In this document: in pieces, positions 1 to 30,558 of the stretch
How the letters are laid out: every line of letters begins with the position of its first letter
How positions within the stretch are numbered: the first letter of the stretch is position 1
Assembly (NCBI GenBank): GCA_019096195.1
Contig: JAGTXK010000055.1
Coordinates: 930,001-994,000 of the forward strand
Source of the DNA: Boletus sp. NGJ
Taxonomy: Eukaryota > Basidiomycota > Agaricomycetes > Boletales > Boletaceae
Direction of reading: 5' to 3'
DNA length: 64,000 bases
Translations under genes and position numbers: made by a program
Notes under the pieces: generated by a model
The model's database searches: none
What the model was told of the DNA's origin: nothing
What the model saw: only the letters and a program-made list of their open reading frames with translations

Positions 1-961
1 ACGCAGAGCACGCCGAAGTTTTCCCAGTGGATATCAAGCTAGACTACAAACCTCGACGTGTTGACTACAGAGCATTGCGAGACGGCAGAACGATCGAGCT
101 GATGAACTTTTTCCATTTTGATGGAGCGGAAATGACATTACGACATTTGACTCTGCACGGTGTGCGTTCGCTCTAAGTAAGGAGAACAAACGGCTAATGC
201 CCCACTAGATCACCGGATGGCCACGTTTCTTCGACACCCTAAATGACCTCTGGACTCCAGATGTAAAGGCTACGCAACTTGTCGATGTCATCTCCGGTGT
301 AGCTCCGATTCGGTCCGTGGTCAATGTCGGTTCGGGGGTCGCAGACCTCGTCCTGCTCCCGATTGCACAATACAAGAAGGATGGACGCGTAGTCCGCGGG
401 CTACAGAAAGGTACCAAGGCGTTCGTCCAGTCTACTGCCATGGAGGCTGTCAAACTTGGTGCTCGTCTGGCCACTGGTACGCAGGTAATTCTGGAGCAAG
501 CTGAGAATGTGTTGGGTGGTCAGTTCAAAGACCCCGTCACCACTGAGGCCCTTCAAATACCATACGAGAATGAGGGTGCAGAAGGCTCGGATGAAGACCT
601 GATTAGTCGTTACGCCGCTCAACCCGCTGGCTTCAAAGAAGGGGTACAATCTGCCTACCATAGTATGCAGAGAAATTTGCACTCTGCTGCTCAGACTATA
701 CTTGCGGTACCCATGGAAGTATACGAGAGATCTGGAAACGAGGTGAGTCGCAAAAGGCGGGTTCGCGATCGAGACTGGCATCAATCTAATCATCTTCACG
801 TGCAGGGAGCGGTCAGAGCTGTTGTACGCGCAGTTCCGATTGCCGTTTTGAAACCCATGATTGGTGCTTCTGAGGCAGTCAGCAAAACCCTTATGGGGCT
901 TCATAATACCCTAGATCCCAATATCCGACTCGAGAATGAAGCCAAGTACAAACACCGCTAA
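1..961 (+). CDS. ATG2: Autophagy-related protein 2 (ATG2), 3' end only
   Basis: This is the C-terminal end of ATG2, the bridge-like lipid transfer protein that joins ER to the growing autophagosome; the 5' part lies left of the window. By eye the exons are <1-161, 209-742 and 806-961, with introns 162-208 (donor GTGCGT) and 743-805. Family motifs seen in order are NFFHFDGAEMTLRHL, GWPRFFDTLNDLW, ATQLVDVISGVAPIR, NVGSGVADLVLLPI and TGTQVILEQAE, which form the conserved fungal ATG2 C-terminal block. The second intron is 63 nt, a multiple of three without a stop, so an unspliced message would stay in frame and add 21 residues. The gene converges on the RPA32-like gene, 201 bp away. Confidence 0.92.
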
Positions 962-1162
962 TTTACGTTTACTTGCAAGTCTGTACCATCTAGCATCAAT
1001 TCATCATTTGCATTAAACATTATCACAATGTGTCGAGTTGTTGGGGGTCATAGACTTAGTACTTTTGTTCGTCATCGCTGCGGTAAGATCAACAAGCTGG
1101 TGACATATCCAGATCTGATATCTGACATCAAGATTACAAAGGCAGATACACAAGTGAATCTC

Positions 1163-2300
1163 TCAGTGTCTCGGTGTGATGACTACATACCCATCATCAA
1201 GTGGGCTGGTAAGATAAGCCTCTGACAGTAGTGCCTGAAAAGCCACACTAAAGGTGATAGCTGCCTTTCAGTATCCTCAATGATAGGCAGTTGGAGAAAG
1301 ACCTACTTGAATTGAAGCCCTGTGGAACCACATGATGCCTGAATTGCTTGTGCCAATTCTACAATCAGAACCTGATGATTGCTGTGGTGGGACATATACT
1401 TCATGATAGCCCTTTCAAGTGGTTTGAGGGTAGCATATGGCCGATGCTTTTGGGGTGAAAAGGTATTGGGGAGGACTGCATGAGAAGCTGGAATGGTATC
1501 AGTGATGTGTTGGATACTGATATCATCTTGATAGGTTTGGCCATCATCTGAGTCCACAGGGGTGTAGATCTTCATGTCATCATCAGAAACGTCCTTGTCA
1601 GAGTCATATGGCTAGTCCGAGTATACTATCAGCAGCCTTTTGGCACTAAAATTTGACTAGCCCACCTGGATATGCTGCTGAGTGAGCATGTTACTATGAA
1701 TCACATTCAGAGTGTGATACAGGACATGGTGAAACCCATGGACTGGGCGAATAGAGCTGATTGTAAGTATAGTCATATTAAAGTTATCCTTTCTTGGAGT
1801 ACCCAAGACCTCAACATAGGTATGTTCCCTTCAGAAGTATGATGATTGTCGACATGTAAGAATGACATGATCATAAGACTTACAAGGCCCGATATTGATC
1901 TGTTTCTTCTTTCTCTACCACTTCAGACAAACCATGTCCTCGAGTTAGACTATCGAAATCTTTATACCCCTTAATTCGCCCAGTTCCATCCTCAAGTATG
2001 CAACGTGCGCTTGCAGCCTGTATCTCTACACTTGTTGCGTGAGCGACAAGTGTGACCTGTGCGTTACAAATCAATGATGATAGCGCGATTAGCTCTCAAA
2101 CCCCAAGTTGATGATGCACCCACATTACCAAACCCTCTCCCCTCAATTACCAGAGATTTATCCCCAAAGAAAGGTGAGGGCTCTGCTTGAAGCAGTTGGA
2201 AAATCGTGACAGGACGAAGAATTTTTTTCCAGGTATCCTTCTTGGGTGGAACCCAAGGAACAATGATAATAGGCTCATCATGTTGCTGATCAGACTCCAT
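1163..2300 (-). CDS. Divergent RPA32 (replication protein A subunit 2) paralogue
   Basis: This is a second RPA32-like gene in tandem behind canonical RPA2. Five exons can be joined in frame: 2300-2124, 2056-1884, 1828-1666, 1611-1307 and 1205-1163, giving about 286 residues. Visible parts are ILRPVTIFQLL (matching LRPMTIYQLI in RPA2), the OB-fold strands VTLVAHATSVEIQAA and CILEDGTGRIKGY, then TYVEVLGTPR and ISSIRPV, and a C-terminal winged helix starting LKPLERAIMKYM and ending PLDDGYVVITPRH. All four introns sit at the same homologous positions and phases (0, 2, 0, 2) as in RPA2, which shows a DNA-level duplication. The Gly/Ser/Tyr-rich N-terminus of RPA2 is replaced by an unrelated acidic, Trp-containing stretch, and an Asp/Ser-rich insert precedes the winged helix. 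No stop interrupts the join, so it looks functional. A recent pseudogene is less likely but not excluded. Confidence 0.75.
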
Positions 2301-2469
2301 GAATCGAATGTAGTTACAATGAGATGAGGATACTCAGGCTGCAGTTGACCAGTGTTATGTAATCATGGACTCTCAAGTTCTTCAATGCATTCAGTCAAAT
2401 CACAGACCAGCCGTAGCTATAACAGAATACCATACTACAGCATCAATCAGCCCAGCACGTATATCTCAC

Positions 2470-3594
2470 TTAACACAGCAGGAAGTGAGATTCATCAGCA
2501 GCAGAATACACAATCCCGTCTTCCGTCAGTTTGTCGAGAGCATCACTGAATAGCGGGTTAAGCGTGGGTGATAATGGAGCATGACCGCATACCTTATTGT
2601 CACAGCATTCCCTCCCACCGCGCGGGCGATAGCGCTGACATGAATGCCTTCTGCATTACTCGGTTGAGCTTGCATAAAGGCAATTATAGAGCGAGGCAAA
2701 TTTGGCAGGTGTGAATACCGGTCGCTAGAGACTGCCAGTTGAGCTGAATATGCGGTGCTTGAACCAACCCCGTTCTGCCGCGGTGTTACTTCTTGAAGAT
2801 TTTGACCAGGTCTTGGTGGCTGTGGCAAGTTAAAGTTGAGCTGATCCCGGCAAGTATCAGACTTACTGGACCACGCTCCCATATCATGGTGACAGTCATA
2901 GCTTCTAGAAGGTGAAAGTAAATCTCGGCAGGTGAATCAATCGGGCGTATAAGATTGGTGTTGATGTATTTTTTGTTCCCGAACGTCTTCAGACTCCCCA
3001 GAACCCGTACATATGCTCCCTCGCTACAAGAGTCAACAGCTAGTCTGAAAGGCGACAAGCAAGTTAACTCACGCAATGCCATTCTTCTCTGACTCATCCT
3101 CCATAGAGGAGTCGGTCCAATGACGAGCTTCGATTCGACCTGAACCATCATCGAGCAGATATTGACTATTCGTTGCCTGTGCCTGTACTGAAGCAATATA
3201 TGCGACAACGGTGACCTGCACGGTTGAATTGATAAGTTGTACATCCAAGTATCGTGATTCTTTACTTGTCCAATTTCTTGGTCGTCGAGGACCCAGTCAG
3301 CGTCTGTGTGTGCTTGATTGGCTTGAATGAGTTGGTAGATCGTCATAGGGCGTAGTGAATGCGCAGTTTCACTTTTCTGAATGCCAAGGTAGATGAAAAT
3401 GAGCCATGAGGACGAGAAGGGCTAACATACACGAGCGAAACCTCCGGGGCTACCAGCTGCGCTGCCATACGGTGAACCCGTTGTCATGTAGCCACCGCCT
3501 GCTGTTCCACCGTAGTAGTTATTGTCGTTGACTGTGAGATTTAAATGAGTGCCAAATCGAATCTCGGTTTCTGCGCCGACCTACATTGGCTCAT
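2470..3594 (-). CDS. RPA2: Replication protein A 32 kDa subunit (RPA2/Rfa2)
   Basis: This is the middle subunit of the nuclear single-strand DNA-binding complex RPA, used in replication, repair and recombination. The start exon is only 10 nt (3594-3585); a 53-nt intron then joins it to a Gly/Tyr-rich N-terminus containing NDNNYYGGTAGGGY, the region that is phosphorylated in the family. The OB fold follows (LRPMTIYQLIQANQA, WVLDDQEIGQ, VTVVAYIASVQAQ, YLLDDGSGRIEARHW, YVRVLGSL), then a linker and the C-terminal winged helix (LPRSIIAFMQAQ, ALDKLTEDGIVYSA). Seven exons give about 270 residues, normal for the family. It lies 180 bp downstream of NAA25 on the same strand and 169 bp upstream of its paralogue. 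MluI boxes lie 50-64 bp upstream of the ATG. Confidence 0.93.
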
Positions 3595-18190: not shown

Positions 18191-21100
18191 ATGTACATGT
18201 CGGCCTGCAGGCCGTCCGTGACGATCATGAACTGCCGGTCGTTGGGCAGCATAGCGTGCAAACCACTATTTTCAGGTTATAATGGTCGACACGCAAACCT
18301 CTCGACGAGTTATTCAAGTGCACCAATAATATCCACAGGCATCCGGTCATTCCACTGGTCCGTATACCGTAGAAATCCATCATCATCAACCACTTCGGAG
18401 ACAAAGAAGGATTCTGGTGCATGTCATCGCCTGCATCACTTGACTGTACGCGCTGATATATAGCCCCTCGCCCTACAGGCACTCCTTATTCTTCTCTCAT
18501 CGTCGGTGCGCCAAGAGAGACGTATCCAAACGAACGTCGTGTATCTCTTACGCCTCAAAATGTTGCTCTGCTGAGGAAGAAAGGCTTTAGTAATATTCTG
18601 GTCGAAACAAATGCAGGTGCTGCCGCACAATTCTTAGACGGAGACTACGCCAAGGCTGGAGCTACCTTGGTCTCCAAAGAAGAACTCTACAAGAAGACGG
18701 ACATTTTACTGAAAGTGCGGCCTCCTTCACAAGATGAGGAGGTCGCTGCCTTGAAAGAAGGTAGTACTGTTATTTCTTTTCTATACCCTGCGCAGAACAA
18801 GTCGCTTGTCGAGAAGCTGGCCTCACGTAACGTAAACGCATTTGCCATGGACATGATTCCACGCATTTCGCGCGCTCAAACATTCGATGCCTTGAGGTGA
18901 GCATAAATATCACATCCAGAACCCATACTTAATGCCCTCGGATCAGTTCCATGGCCAATATTGCAGGCTACAAAGCTGTTTTAGAGGCCTCCAACCACTT
19001 TGGTCGTTATCTTACCGGACAGGTCACGGCAGCTGGGTAAGTGCATGGTTGAGAGTATTAGGTATTTCTAACTCTTTCGTTACAGAAAGGTAGCTGCGCG
19101 TTTTTTCATGCACTTTCACGCGTCTTACGCGCATGTAAGGTTCCCCCTGGCAAGGTTCTCATCATAGGTGCCGGTGTCGCCGGACTCAGTGCTATTGCAA
19201 CGGTTCGTCCTTTTGACTTGAATGTATATTCTAGGAAAAAACAAACTCACTCATGATAGGCGCGTCGACTTGGTGCCATTGTCCGAGGATTTGACACTCG
19301 CTCAGCCGCGCGTGAACAAGTTCAATCTCTTGGGGCCGAGTTTCTCGAAGTCTCTGTCCAGGAGGAAGGTGGCGGAGCAGGAGGTTATGCCAAGGAAATG
19401 TCCAAGGAATTTATTAAAGCAGAGATGGCGCTTTTCATGGAACAATGCAAGGAGGTCGACATCCTCATAACAACTGCGCTTATTCCTGGCAAACCCGCTC
19501 CTAAGCTAATCACGTACGAGGTCAGTAAAGGGTCAGTATTTGAGGCATCTGAACTCACGTTCGCCTGCAGATGGTTGCAGCAATGAGGCAGGGTTCAGTT
19601 ATCGTTGACGTATGTTATGTCAAGTCTGCGAGGTCTCAAAACTCATGTTCTTGGTCAAGTTGGCAGCCGAAGCGGGAGGTAACTGTCAAGCCACTGTACC
19701 AGGGGAGTTGGCTGTTAAGAATGGGGTCACTATTATCGGTAACGTGACCCTTTATGGAGATCAGTTAGATACCCATTGACTTGTGCAGGTTATACCGACC
19801 TTCCATCGCGGTTGCCAACGCAGTCATCAACCTTGTACTCAAATAACATCACCAAGTTTCTTTTGTCTATTGGTGAAGGGAACAACAACTACAACATTGA
19901 CTTGAGCGACGAAGTAGTCAGAGGTTCAATTGTGGTTCATAAAGGTGAACAACTACCACCCGTTCCCCGTCCAGCTCCTCCCCCAGCTCCCCCTCCAACA
20001 CCCAAGGTGGAGGAAGTACAAACCAAAGCCATCACTCCATGGCAGAAGGTCACTCGTGAAGTTGCTACTGTTACTGTGGGAATGGGATCTACAGTTGCTC
20101 TTGGGAAGCTCACCGGGGCTGCCTTCATGAGCAACTTTTTTACATTTGGGTTGGCGGGTCTGGTTGGATACCGTGTTGTTTGGGGTGTGGCCCCAGCTCT
20201 ACACTCACCGTTGATGTCAGTTACAAACGCAATCTCCGGTTAGTCCACTCATACTCGAATCAAGCTCGATGCTAAAATGAAATTTACAGGAATGGTTGGT
20301 GTTGGAGGTTTGTTTGTGATGGGTGGAGGCTACTTGCCAGAGACCATTCCTCAAGTACTCGGTGCTCTGTCAGTTCTTCTCGCCAGTGTGAATGTCGCTG
20401 GGGGTTTCGTCATCACCAAACGTATGCTTAATATGTTCAAGAGTAAGTCCATGGTCATGGAATTTGGGTTGCGGCTCAATATTTTACAGGACCAACTGAT
20501 CCACCTGAATATTCATGGCTGTACGGAGTTCCTGCGGTTGTGTTCACAGGAGGGTTACTGGCCGCAGCGAGCACTGGGATGGCTGGTCTTGTCCAAGCGG
20601 GCTACCTGACGAGCAGTCTCCTTTGCATTGGTGAGTGGCATGATTACAGCTTTCTTCTCAATTAAGTGTGACTTTTTGAAGGTTCTCTGTCTGGACTGTC
20701 TTCGCAAACTACGGCGCGCCAAGGCAATGCACTCGGTATCCTCGGTGTGGGCTCTGGAATTCTCGCGTCGTTGTTAGCTGTGGGCTTCCCTCCAGAACTC
20801 CTAGCACAGTTTGCTGGAGTTGCCACTGTTGGTGGCACATTTGGTGCAATCATCGGTCGGCGCATCACAGCCACGGAACTTCCGCAGATGGTCGCAGCTT
20901 TGCACTCTGTCGTTGGTCTTGCAGCTGTGTTCACCTCCATTGCCAGTGTGCTCGCCGACCCATCGCACCTTTCTGTGCTCCACCAAGTGACAGCCTACCT
21001 TGGAGTTGTGATTGGTGGTGTCACCTTCACCGGTTCCGTCGTAGCTTTCCTAAAATTGGCGGGGAAGATGAGCTCAAGACCATTGATGATGCCTGGAAGA

Positions 21101-26899: not shown

Positions 26900-29800
26900 A
26901 TGGATTCAAGGATAATCCCGGCTCGGCTGGCGACACCTCGTTACCATCTGCAGCTTTCATTTTTGCAGAGTCCGGAAGGTAGTGGCGAGCGAGTGCTAGT
27001 CGAAGATTCTCAAAAAGAAGAGCGTCAAGAGCTTGTCAGCGAACTGGCCGGAATATCTGTAACTTCGCCAGCCTCGTCCGAGTCAGACAATGTCCCAGTG
27101 CAAGGCTCAGGCCGTTCAGGTTCGGTATTTTTTCACGGAGATACTAGTCCACTCTCGGCACCCGCTGGAAAGGTAATCGGTGAGCCACTCTTCATGTCCC
27201 CCGTCACCCCTACTTTCAGATAATTACCTCTTAGTCTCTAGGGACGAGGTCCATATCCTTTCACTCTCCCCCCACCACAGCTGCACTCCATCCTTTCTCT
27301 CGACCAACAAAGCCCATGCCCGTCGCGAATAGGCACTACCGTCGTTCTCCTTCCTTTCCCTCCCAAGACTCGTTTGGTGGCCCCGTCTCACAGGATCCGG
27401 CAGAACAATTTCTCGCGTCAGCAAAGCAGTTCGATGTGCCACTCTCTGATCTGGGAGAGACGCCAACTCAAGTGGTCATTCATTCGCCCACAGTTCCTGG
27501 CATGACGCTCCCAGATGCCAGTGAGCACAAAGAGTTCCTCGAGGGTGCTATGCGCGAGTATGAAGCACAAAGGGCGAACAGGGCCACTTCAAATCGTCGC
27601 CCAAATATTCTTGTGGCTGCCACTCCCAGCAATTCCGGTGAATATTCAGGCACGTCACAGCACAAGGATGACGATTTCTCGTTTCGTGGTTTAGAATTTG
27701 CTGGTCAGGAGTCGAGGTTCGAGTTTGGCGGCTCATCGTCCTTTGATAAGATGCTCGACCGGGGCCTCGCTGACGCTCCGGATCCGACCCCAGAGTCCAC
27801 CCACCCCAATGAGACCGAACCAGCACAAGTTGACGGCGTTGTTGGTGTTGAGCCCTCTACCGGAGATGGCGTCCTCACCACGCCACTACGCAGTAGCAAC
27901 CGGCGCTCTCCACCCTTTGAGTGGATTGCTCCCACTCCTAGTGCGGCTGTCGCATCCAGCAATCCCAGGAGCTTGTTAAGAATGGTGAATCCGGGCAACA
28001 AGTATCGAATCGCCAGGATGCTGGCGGGAAATGTGGAGTCCCCCGCGTGCGTAACCACGGGAGCGGTGACGCAGCCTTCTCGCATGGAAGAAACACAACC
28101 TTGCCACACCGATGAATCGACCTACTCAAATGCTCTCCCACCAGTTCGACCCGCATCGCGCCAAATGAAGATGGCCAATTCTCGCCCAATTAGACACCAA
28201 CCTCAGAGAGAGGACGATGACGATGAACCTGAAGATGCGCTGGACATTGTCCCGGACTCTGAACCACTTCGAGCTGGACCCAGTGCTCAAACACCAGGTC
28301 ACCATCGAACTGTGACGCAAAGTCCGCTTAAGAAACTTTTCCGCCCTCTCAGCCCGATGTCCGTGCATGGATCCGGAGACCTTGCTCCCGATTCCCTGGA
28401 GGTTGAGGAAAGCGAAGCTGATGTTCCGCTGGCCATCGAATTAGCTTCCAGAAACACGAAGAGATCCGTGGCTCCTACAGAAGACATCGCTGTGCATGGC
28501 AGAAAACCGAGGAATACATCTTCTGTTGTTCCTGAAAAAGTGATTTGGACCACTCCTTCGATGACCCTAACTGTAAACTGATACCATCATTACCTCGGCA
28601 GGCCCCATTACTTGCTCTTGAAAAACAACCTCGAAGACCTACTTCGTCCTCGATGAAAGGGAGGAACTTGAGACCAGGCCCTTCAAAATCGGAGTCCACA
28701 GAGGTTCCGACGTCACATCCAGAGCAGGATCTACAAGGTCAAGCATTCCCCTGCAGGGAACCCCCTTCTGCTGCAGTAAACATGCCACCTTTGGGGGGGA
28801 AGAGAAAAGGGCCACAACCTTTGGAACCTTTGCGAGTGTGCCACGCTTCCACAATGTGTCTTCCCGCGACCAAGCCTGTCGCTGGAAAAAAACGTTCCCA
28901 TAATTCCGATACCGAGAGCTCAGAAGACTCGTCACGCCACGCCACTGAGGATGAGGGGGTTATGCATCCCAGGGTTCAGAAGGAGGAAGAGGAGGAGTCT
29001 GCAGATGAACATGATGCTGACTCGCCGCCACCCCCACCTTCAAAACCTGACACATCACGTAAGAAAAGAAGACGGAATGAAGACGTAAATCCAACTCGCG
29101 GAATGTCGAAAGCTTCAACTTCGACTCGAAACAAGCGGTCTGAGACTCCTGCAATCGCTACACGTTCTGTCAAGAAGTTACGCTCTGAGGTATCATCCAC
29201 CCGCGGACTCACAGTAGAGCCGGCTACACAAGTCTTCGCGTTATGGAAACAAGATGGTCACTATTACTCCGGCGTCATCCACTCCCGCGGACTGAAAAAC
29301 AAGCATTTGGTGAAGTTTGATGATGGGACGGAAGATGAAGTCGAACTCAAAAATATACGTCGCCGAGAGCTTCTGGTTGGAGACAGAGTTATCACCATTC
29401 AGGACAATGTCAAAGGCGTGGTTAGCGATGTCAGCCATGGCTCGCTTAAATTGGAGATCGACAACGGGCAGGCAGTAGCAACTGTTCAAGTGGGATTCGA
29501 TGATATTCGCATTGCGAATCGGACGATTCAAAGCCAGTGGAAGGAGCGCATGATCGTGGCAGAGAATATTGTCACTGTGGTCAAACCAAAGCCTCGCATT
29601 GACGCGACGCCATCCAAACAGTCGGTTACGAGCACGACCTCCAGCAAAGTCCAGCGACAGTTGGTCAAAACAGGCTTCGTAGTCACCATCAATCCTAGGA
29701 ATGAAGACCCCATGCAAACGAAAGACGAGGCAATGTGCGCTATCAACCGGCACGGAGGGTTGGTGATTGAAGATTGGTCTAGTGTGTTCACAATGGAAGG

Positions 29801-30558
29801 CAAACATAGTCAATCCAACAAGCGATGGATCGCGACGCCACAAGATTTTCGTTGGAGGTCGGAAGTAAACCTGGATCGCGTCTTCCTTCTATCCGATGAC
29901 GCGCATCAAAAGCCTAAATTTCTCCTAGCGCTTGCGCTTGGTATTCCCTGCCTCTCGTTTGAGTGGTTGACAAGAGGGGGGAAGTTCTCGTCGGTATGTT
30001 TTATATGCGTCCTTCAAATATGTATGGCATTGAATCGAATACATGTCAGGACTGGCAACCGTTCCTTCTCTCAGCGGGGTATTCTGATACGCTCGGTGCT
30101 AGAATCTCCCAACTCGTTGATCTTGACTGGGGAAATTGTACAGAACACCTCACCGACATTATGGCCAGTCGGGTGCCAATCAAGCTGTTTTCGCGAAAAA
30201 AGGTGCTGTGCATTGGTGCAGACCTAGTTCCTCTTCCCCCGAGTCGGGCAAGAAGAGTACGTCTGATAATTTAACTTCAATACACAGGCCCTAATGCCAA
30301 ACGATTCAGAATAATCCCGAAGAAGCCAGCCGATATGTTCCCTGGATCATTTTATGTATGGGTGCGGACAAGGTCGAGGCGGTCACAGATACAAAACAAG
30401 TCTCCCCTGGTCACATGAAGACCTTCAACTATATCATTGTCAAAGAACGAAACCTTCTCGGATCAGTCAAGGTTGACGACGATATCGTCGTGGGGGATGT
30501 TAACTGGGTAAAGGAATGCCTGGTCTCGTCGCGCTTATCCACACCTGAGCTGGACTAA
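26900..30558 (+). CDS. DNA-damage checkpoint mediator, Crb2/Rad9 (53BP1-like)
   Basis: This is a nuclear adaptor that binds modified nucleosomes at breaks and passes the Mec1/ATR signal to effector kinases. Five exons (26900-27179, 27242-28539, 28602-29993, 30050-30256, 30310-30558) give 1141 residues in one frame. The N-terminal 700 residues are disordered and rich in SQ/TQ and SP motifs (RVLVEDSQ, FPSQDSFGG). A Tudor domain follows (QVFALWKQDGHYYSGVI, LVKFDDGTEDEVELKNIRRR). The C-terminus is a BRCT pair: FVVTINPRNEDP with GIPCLSFEWLTRGG, WQPFLLSAGYS, then KTFNYIIVKERNLLG and VVGDVNWVKECLVS. Tudor plus tandem BRCT after a long SQ/TQ region is the Crb2/53BP1 architecture. The first intron uses the donor GTGAGC at 27180; only that choice keeps the frame. 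Confidence 0.88.

Follow-up and report, generated by a model that had tools for sequence, protein, structure and literature searches.

The 64,000-base stretch of DNA analysed here (the window; C22:930001-994000 in an assembly of 141 contigs and 32.8 Mb) contains a canonical RPA2 (RPA32) gene and, beside it on the minus strand, a strongly diverged RPA32-like copy with an open reading frame. The gene structure, homology, residue pattern and CpG depletion of this copy are directly established. The sequence tentatively favours the view, held at slightly less than even confidence, that the copy is an old tandem paralogue whose frame was long kept by selection, and that it serves as an alternative or competing RPA subunit that is methylated and expressed rarely, if at all.

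The RPA2 locus and its tandem copy

RPA2 occupies positions 3594-2470 on the minus strand and encodes 274 amino acids in 7 exons. It matches RPA32 chains of known structure (4gnx_B, E 5.4e-32; 2pi2_A, E 2.4e-20) and the Pfam family RPA_C (E 9.2e-12). We take 4gnx_B to be the Ustilago maydis protein, 2pi2_A the human protein and 6i52_B the yeast protein; the PDB table names 4gnx_B a putative uncharacterized protein. Between the RPA2 stop and the ATG of the copy lie 169 CpG-poor bases (2301..2469; 3 CpG seen, 7.3 expected).

The copy runs from ATG to stop at 2300-1163 on the minus strand and encodes 300 amino acids in five exons, as given by a gene model rebuilt from the sequence and by an OB-fold match to 4gnx_B. 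Exon 1 (2124..2300, 177 nt) encodes an N-terminus without detectable similarity to the Gly/Ser-rich region of RPA2 and the beginning of the OB fold. Exon 2 (1884..2056, 173 nt) encodes the OB-fold core, and exon 3 (1666..1828, 163 nt) completes the OB fold and adds the C-terminal helix. Exon 4 (1307..1611, 305 nt) contributes an enlarged acidic linker, with 12 Asp/Glu against 4 Lys/Arg in 57 residues, and the first part of a probable winged helix, which ends with the stop codon in exon 5 (1163..1247, 85 nt). Measured from stop to stop, the frames that hold the exons are 89, 71, 57, 102 and 34 codons long, and the spliced frame contains no internal stop.

All four introns of the copy are GT-AG, measure 54-67 nt and have phases 0, 2, 0 and 2. 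Introns 1, 2 and 4 share both alignment column and phase with RPA2 introns 3, 4 and 6; intron 3 has the phase of RPA2 intron 5 and lies one column away, in a linker that is poorly aligned there. The initial annotation held that four core introns are common to both genes, and this is correct in phase for all four and exact in position for three, with the fourth within a codon. Exons 2-5 of the copy are longer than their RPA2 counterparts by 30, 6, 78 and 9 nt, all multiples of three, the copy's splice sites having been picked to preserve the frame.

Homology between the two genes is strongest in the OB fold. The copy matches 4gnx_B at E 6.9e-11 over copy residues 25-164, that is, the OB fold only, and its alignment with RPA2 has a z of 27, with 0 of 1000 shuffles scoring as high. 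OB-fold identity is 43/127 (33.9%) between RPA2 and the copy, 55/127 (43.3%) between RPA2 and the U. maydis protein, and 40/127 (31.5%) between the copy and the U. maydis protein, so that RPA2 is nearer to the U. maydis protein than to its own neighbour. Thirteen OB-fold residues are exclusive to RPA2 and the copy and 10 to the copy and U. maydis, counts that do not fix the age of the duplication. It is the tandem position and the common introns that would place it in the intron-rich mushroom lineage. Two earlier proposals are supported: a tandem duplication, and an intact yet strongly diverged copy.

The two ends of the protein are less clearly related to RPA2. The copy has no match to Pfam RPA_C at E <= 1. 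Its winged-helix region scores z 5.1 against the RPA2 domain (1/1000 shuffles as high); 67/1000 shuffles score as high against human RPA32, and hhalign returns a probability of 3% with an E of 0.014. An OB fold together with a winged helix had been proposed; the OB fold stands, and the winged helix is weakly supported. The N-terminus of the copy has no detectable relation to that of RPA2 (171/1000 shuffles as high) and contains no SQ, against one in RPA2, in agreement with the proposal that the N-terminal phospho-type region has been replaced.

Protein and DNA searches of the assembly recover the RPA2 and copy loci only, with no close further copy or allele; these searches are weak for short diverged exons, and an equally diverged third paralogue could escape them. 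As a protein query the copy does not recover RPA2 at E <= 10, and RPA2 recovers the copy through one exon only (E 0.06). An RPA_C family search of the genome matches nothing and misses RPA2 itself, probably because of its short exons. The RPA1 families PF08646 and PF16900 mark one locus, C122:133960-134983, in a search that could miss a diverged paralogue. MEIOB-like RPA1 paralogues are described in some fungi (PMC4830875). Scans of viral contigs with the RPA2 and copy proteins find no relative; one scan gives no pattern match and the other six, none of them confirmed.

Two other genes were noted in the window. The gene end at window 1-961 on the plus strand, convergent with the copy, presumably encodes an ATG2-like C-terminus, judged by eye, and its CpG ratio is normal to slightly low. 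Long frames at 27235-30227 on the plus strand, some 25 kb away from RPA2 and its copy, resemble by eye what we take to be a BRCT/Tudor checkpoint protein of the Crb2/53BP1 type.

Conserved and DNA-contact residues

The copy keeps 14 of the 22 residues that are invariant in RPA2 and in U. maydis, yeast and human RPA32. Those lost, in RPA2 numbering, are Glu71, Asn90, Arg105, Trp107, Leu133, Phe136, Glu155 and Glu162. Trp107 is replaced by Asp92 of the copy and Phe136 by Asn132, and the OB fold of the copy is left without any Trp. In the alignment the two RPA2 residues fall on human W107 and F135; a published prediction has these human residues, together with H82, stacking on ssDNA (PMC3136212). 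At the H82 position RPA2 and the copy have Ser, and yeast and U. maydis have Asn, which indicates that DNA contacts differ even among canonical RPA32 proteins. Loss of the predicted stacking Trp and Phe, which the initial annotation had not noticed, marks the copy as a diverged paralogue and not a canonical RPA32. A Phe lies one column beyond each of the two lost aromatics in the copy, and this one-residue shift may preserve some ssDNA contact.

The C-terminal helix of RPA32 serves trimer formation. Of its four invariant columns, His159 and Leu161 are kept in the copy and Glu155 and Glu162 are changed; by eye, its hydrophobic pattern looks kept. The residue pattern as a whole suggests a protein that could still assemble while touching DNA less.

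Selection on the frame and loss of CpG

The frame of the copy is open where simulated neutral change gives 4-10 stops, a result that is new relative to the initial annotation. In a neutral simulation of the RPA2 coding sequence (substitutions only, 500 runs per level, the copy branch's share of the divergence not being fixed), 4.2, 5.9, 8.5 and 9.9 stops arise at 0.2, 0.3, 0.5 and 0.7 changes per site. The probability of no stop is 0.012 at 0.2, and 0/500 runs are stop-free at each of 0.3, 0.5 and 0.7. A second simulation with 300 runs per setting places this probability at 0.3 changes per site at 0.007 without CpG excess and 0 with it. Mononucleotide shuffles of the copy coding sequence contain 16.3 stops on average, with 0/2000 stop-free. 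An open frame in the face of these stops means that selection most likely maintained it for most of its history.

Other measures of constraint are less decisive. Neutral change retains as many invariant residues with probability 0.74, 0.32, 0.028 and 0.002 at 0.2, 0.3, 0.5 and 0.7 changes per site, and the values at 0.2-0.3 mean that residue retention alone is no proof of constraint. Hydrophobic positions remain hydrophobic in 27 of 33 cases, which is not significant at any simulated level, and retention grouped by human/yeast conservation shows no dependence (23/40 versus 7/15, p 0.34). Synonymous sites between RPA2 and the copy are saturated (pS 0.781, pN 0.456), which makes dN/dS between them unusable. 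A test, by codon phase, of whether selection acted while CpGs were being lost gives p 0.028 alone and p 0.12 against decayed retrotransposons.

The copy is also the most CpG-depleted stretch found, a feature absent from the initial annotation. Its CpG observed/expected ratio is 0.34, falling to 0.16 at 1251-1750, compared with 0.90 in RPA2 and an average of 0.93 over 255 windows of 500 bases. Among 1064 sliding windows of 1138 bases, which cover the window plus 49 kb in five other stretches (taken at round-number places, one of them the left flank), 7 fall below 0.45, every one over the copy. The depleted stretch, which has no strand, comprises the copy and its flanks (963..2469); without 1884-2123 it contains 16 CpG where 57.8 are expected. 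Segment 1884-2123, which holds the copy's exon 2 and intron 1, is normal (11 seen, 12.0 expected), and its contrast with the rest of the stretch has a p of 0.003 for a segment that was selected after inspection. Depletion is thus confined to the copy and its flanks, except for exon 2 and intron 1, with normal neighbours. Recent gene conversion as the source of the CpG-normal exon 2 is ruled out by a third-position identity of 14/48. Within the window, the second most CpG-poor stretch is 19501-20750, where 500-base windows give 0.50-0.68; it lies inside a gene that by eye presumably encodes an NAD(P) transhydrogenase.

CpG methylation followed by deamination is the likely cause of the depletion. 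Methylation at the copy is inferred because many decayed retrotransposons of the same genome bear the same CpG mark. Twenty RVT loci, each about 2.5 kb long and selected for carrying at least two stops, have a median CpG ratio of 0.53 (range 0.20-1.01; 6/20 above 0.8); TGA makes up 51 of the 57 stops found in their cores, as expected from CpG decay of CGA. For the 25 best RVT matches the median is 1.12 over the locus (4/25 below 0.7) and 1.46 over the core; stop counts for the cores of these best matches are left out, since minus-strand loci seem to have been read on the opposite strand, to which CpG ratios are indifferent. The DNA methylase family PF00145 has five matches at four places in the genome. 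Repeats in Coprinus are methylated during the sexual cycle. In basidiomycete transposons, a CpG to TpG signature has been attributed to methylation and deamination (PMC4352252).

Locus L015 (C81:1729000-1731200) carries at about bases 576-730 a 5.8S rRNA match that is CpG-free, as if CpG had become TpG, and the adjoining ITS2 is CpG-decayed too. It is the sole match among 39 scored of 947 candidates, lies about 9 kb from the contig end and looks like a decayed rDNA fragment; intact rDNA was not seen among the same scored candidates.

Because the depletion falls on exactly the copy locus, a silenced duplicate competes seriously with the working paralogue as an explanation and is nearly as likely. 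The copy would then have been functional for long, been methylated and quickly lost its CpGs, so that it now stands at the start of decay with its open frame as a remnant. The confinement of the CpG loss to the copy and the shared mark of the decayed RVT loci favour this account, as does the state of methylation in fungi, where gene-body methylation is described as largely lost and 5mC as specialised for transposon silencing (review, PMC13297926). CpG decay should yield stops only from CGA, so a fast burst could have spared the frame. Slow deamination is harder to reconcile with silencing: at an assumed rate of about 10 times the usual, it brings 0.15-0.2 neutral changes per site, for which the probability of no stop is about 1-4%, and slow loss would also add frameshifting indels. 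The nearest RVT match on the contig, among 150 scored of 471 candidates, is more than 640 kb away, which also speaks against silencing. In sum, the open frame favours a working alternative RPA32 and the CpG depletion a silenced copy. Slow CpG loss would tip the balance back towards the working copy, since the frame came through it open; a fast burst would give no such support.

Possible roles and known systems

A paralogue outside RPA, such as an RPA32-type OB protein in a Stn1/CST-like or other complex, is improbable. Long divergence, the different N-terminus, the acidic linker and the weak winged helix would fit such a role, and Pfam Stn1 has no match in the genome, so that Stn1 is not located elsewhere. 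However, the same Stn1 search matched no control genome either, and its silence carries no meaning; in sequence the copy is closest to RPA32 chains, and none of the 5 matches listed to E 10 is a Stn1 chain. Slightly less probable still is an artefact of the gene model, in which splice-site choice would make a pseudogene look open: judged by eye, the donors GTGGGT and GTGGGC are unusual and no clear pyrimidine tract precedes the intron 2 acceptor, but the introns lie at RPA2 positions and phases, the exon frames are open where homology demands it, and shuffled copy coding sequence gives 16 stops.

If the copy is a working paralogue, as tentatively preferred, it would take the place of RPA32 in an RPA-like trimer through the partly conserved C-terminal helix, and its DBD-D would contact ssDNA more weakly. 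The changed N-terminus and winged-helix surface would make this trimer an alternative or competing RPA and not the replication RPA. CpG methylation at the locus, if it is the cause of the depletion, would probably keep the gene off or low in most cells, and any use of the copy would be confined to a narrow stage. The alternative RPA trimer suggested in the initial annotation is plausible on these grounds: some C-terminal-helix residues are kept, the frame was probably under past selection, and the RPA1 at C122 is a possible partner. A meiotic or tissue-stage role would be drawn from analogy only.

A more specific version, considered unlikely, has the copy act as an RPA subunit under epigenetic gating. 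It would be methylated and off in vegetative cells and switched on briefly, for instance in basidia or in a damage response, to lower the DBD-D contact with ssDNA, and 1884-2123 would be an unmethylated control segment. Were this true, methylation would control which RPA a mushroom makes.

If expressed, a fungal RPA2 paralogue would provide an independent test of the purpose of alternative RPA in an organism whose meiosis can be staged. That a host gene with an open frame carries the CpG mark also bears on whether basidiomycete methylation, described as aimed at transposons (PMC13297926), can settle on duplicated host genes, where it could shape their divergence.

Human RPA4 is an intronless retro-copy. 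Like the copy described here, it accompanies RPA2 as an additional protein of the RPA32 type. Primates, worms and plants are known to have RPA2 paralogues (PMC7913698, PMC10779431); the titles and abstract openings of the papers listed on RPA32 paralogues mention no fungal duplicate, though one may be in print. RPA4 can substitute for RPA32 as the partner of RPA70 and RPA14, and its function with DNA polymerase alpha is deficient (PMC10779431). Its identity to its own RPA32 is given as 47% (PMC10779431), compared with 34% over the OB fold for the copy. Unlike RPA4, which is known here by description, the copy is without the Trp/Phe pair, keeps RPA2 introns, lies in tandem and is CpG-depleted.

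C. elegans RPA-4 is likewise an RPA-2 paralogue, taken by description as an independent duplication. It pairs with RPA-1, is little used in normal growth, is recruited after damage and is antagonistic to RPA-2 (PMC7913698). Ustilago maydis RPA32 (4gnx/4gop) is the closest solved structure to both RPA2 and the copy and, by eye, resembles them in its C-terminal helix pattern; unlike the copy, it has the Trp and Phe in place.

CpG-decayed basidiomycete transposons, associated with Masc2/DNMT1-type methylation, carry the same CpG signature as the copy. Unlike them, the copy is a host gene with an open frame, no further copy found and CpG-normal neighbours. It is an apparently independent RPA2 paralogue that bears an unusual epigenetic scar and may work like human RPA4 or C. 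elegans RPA-4.
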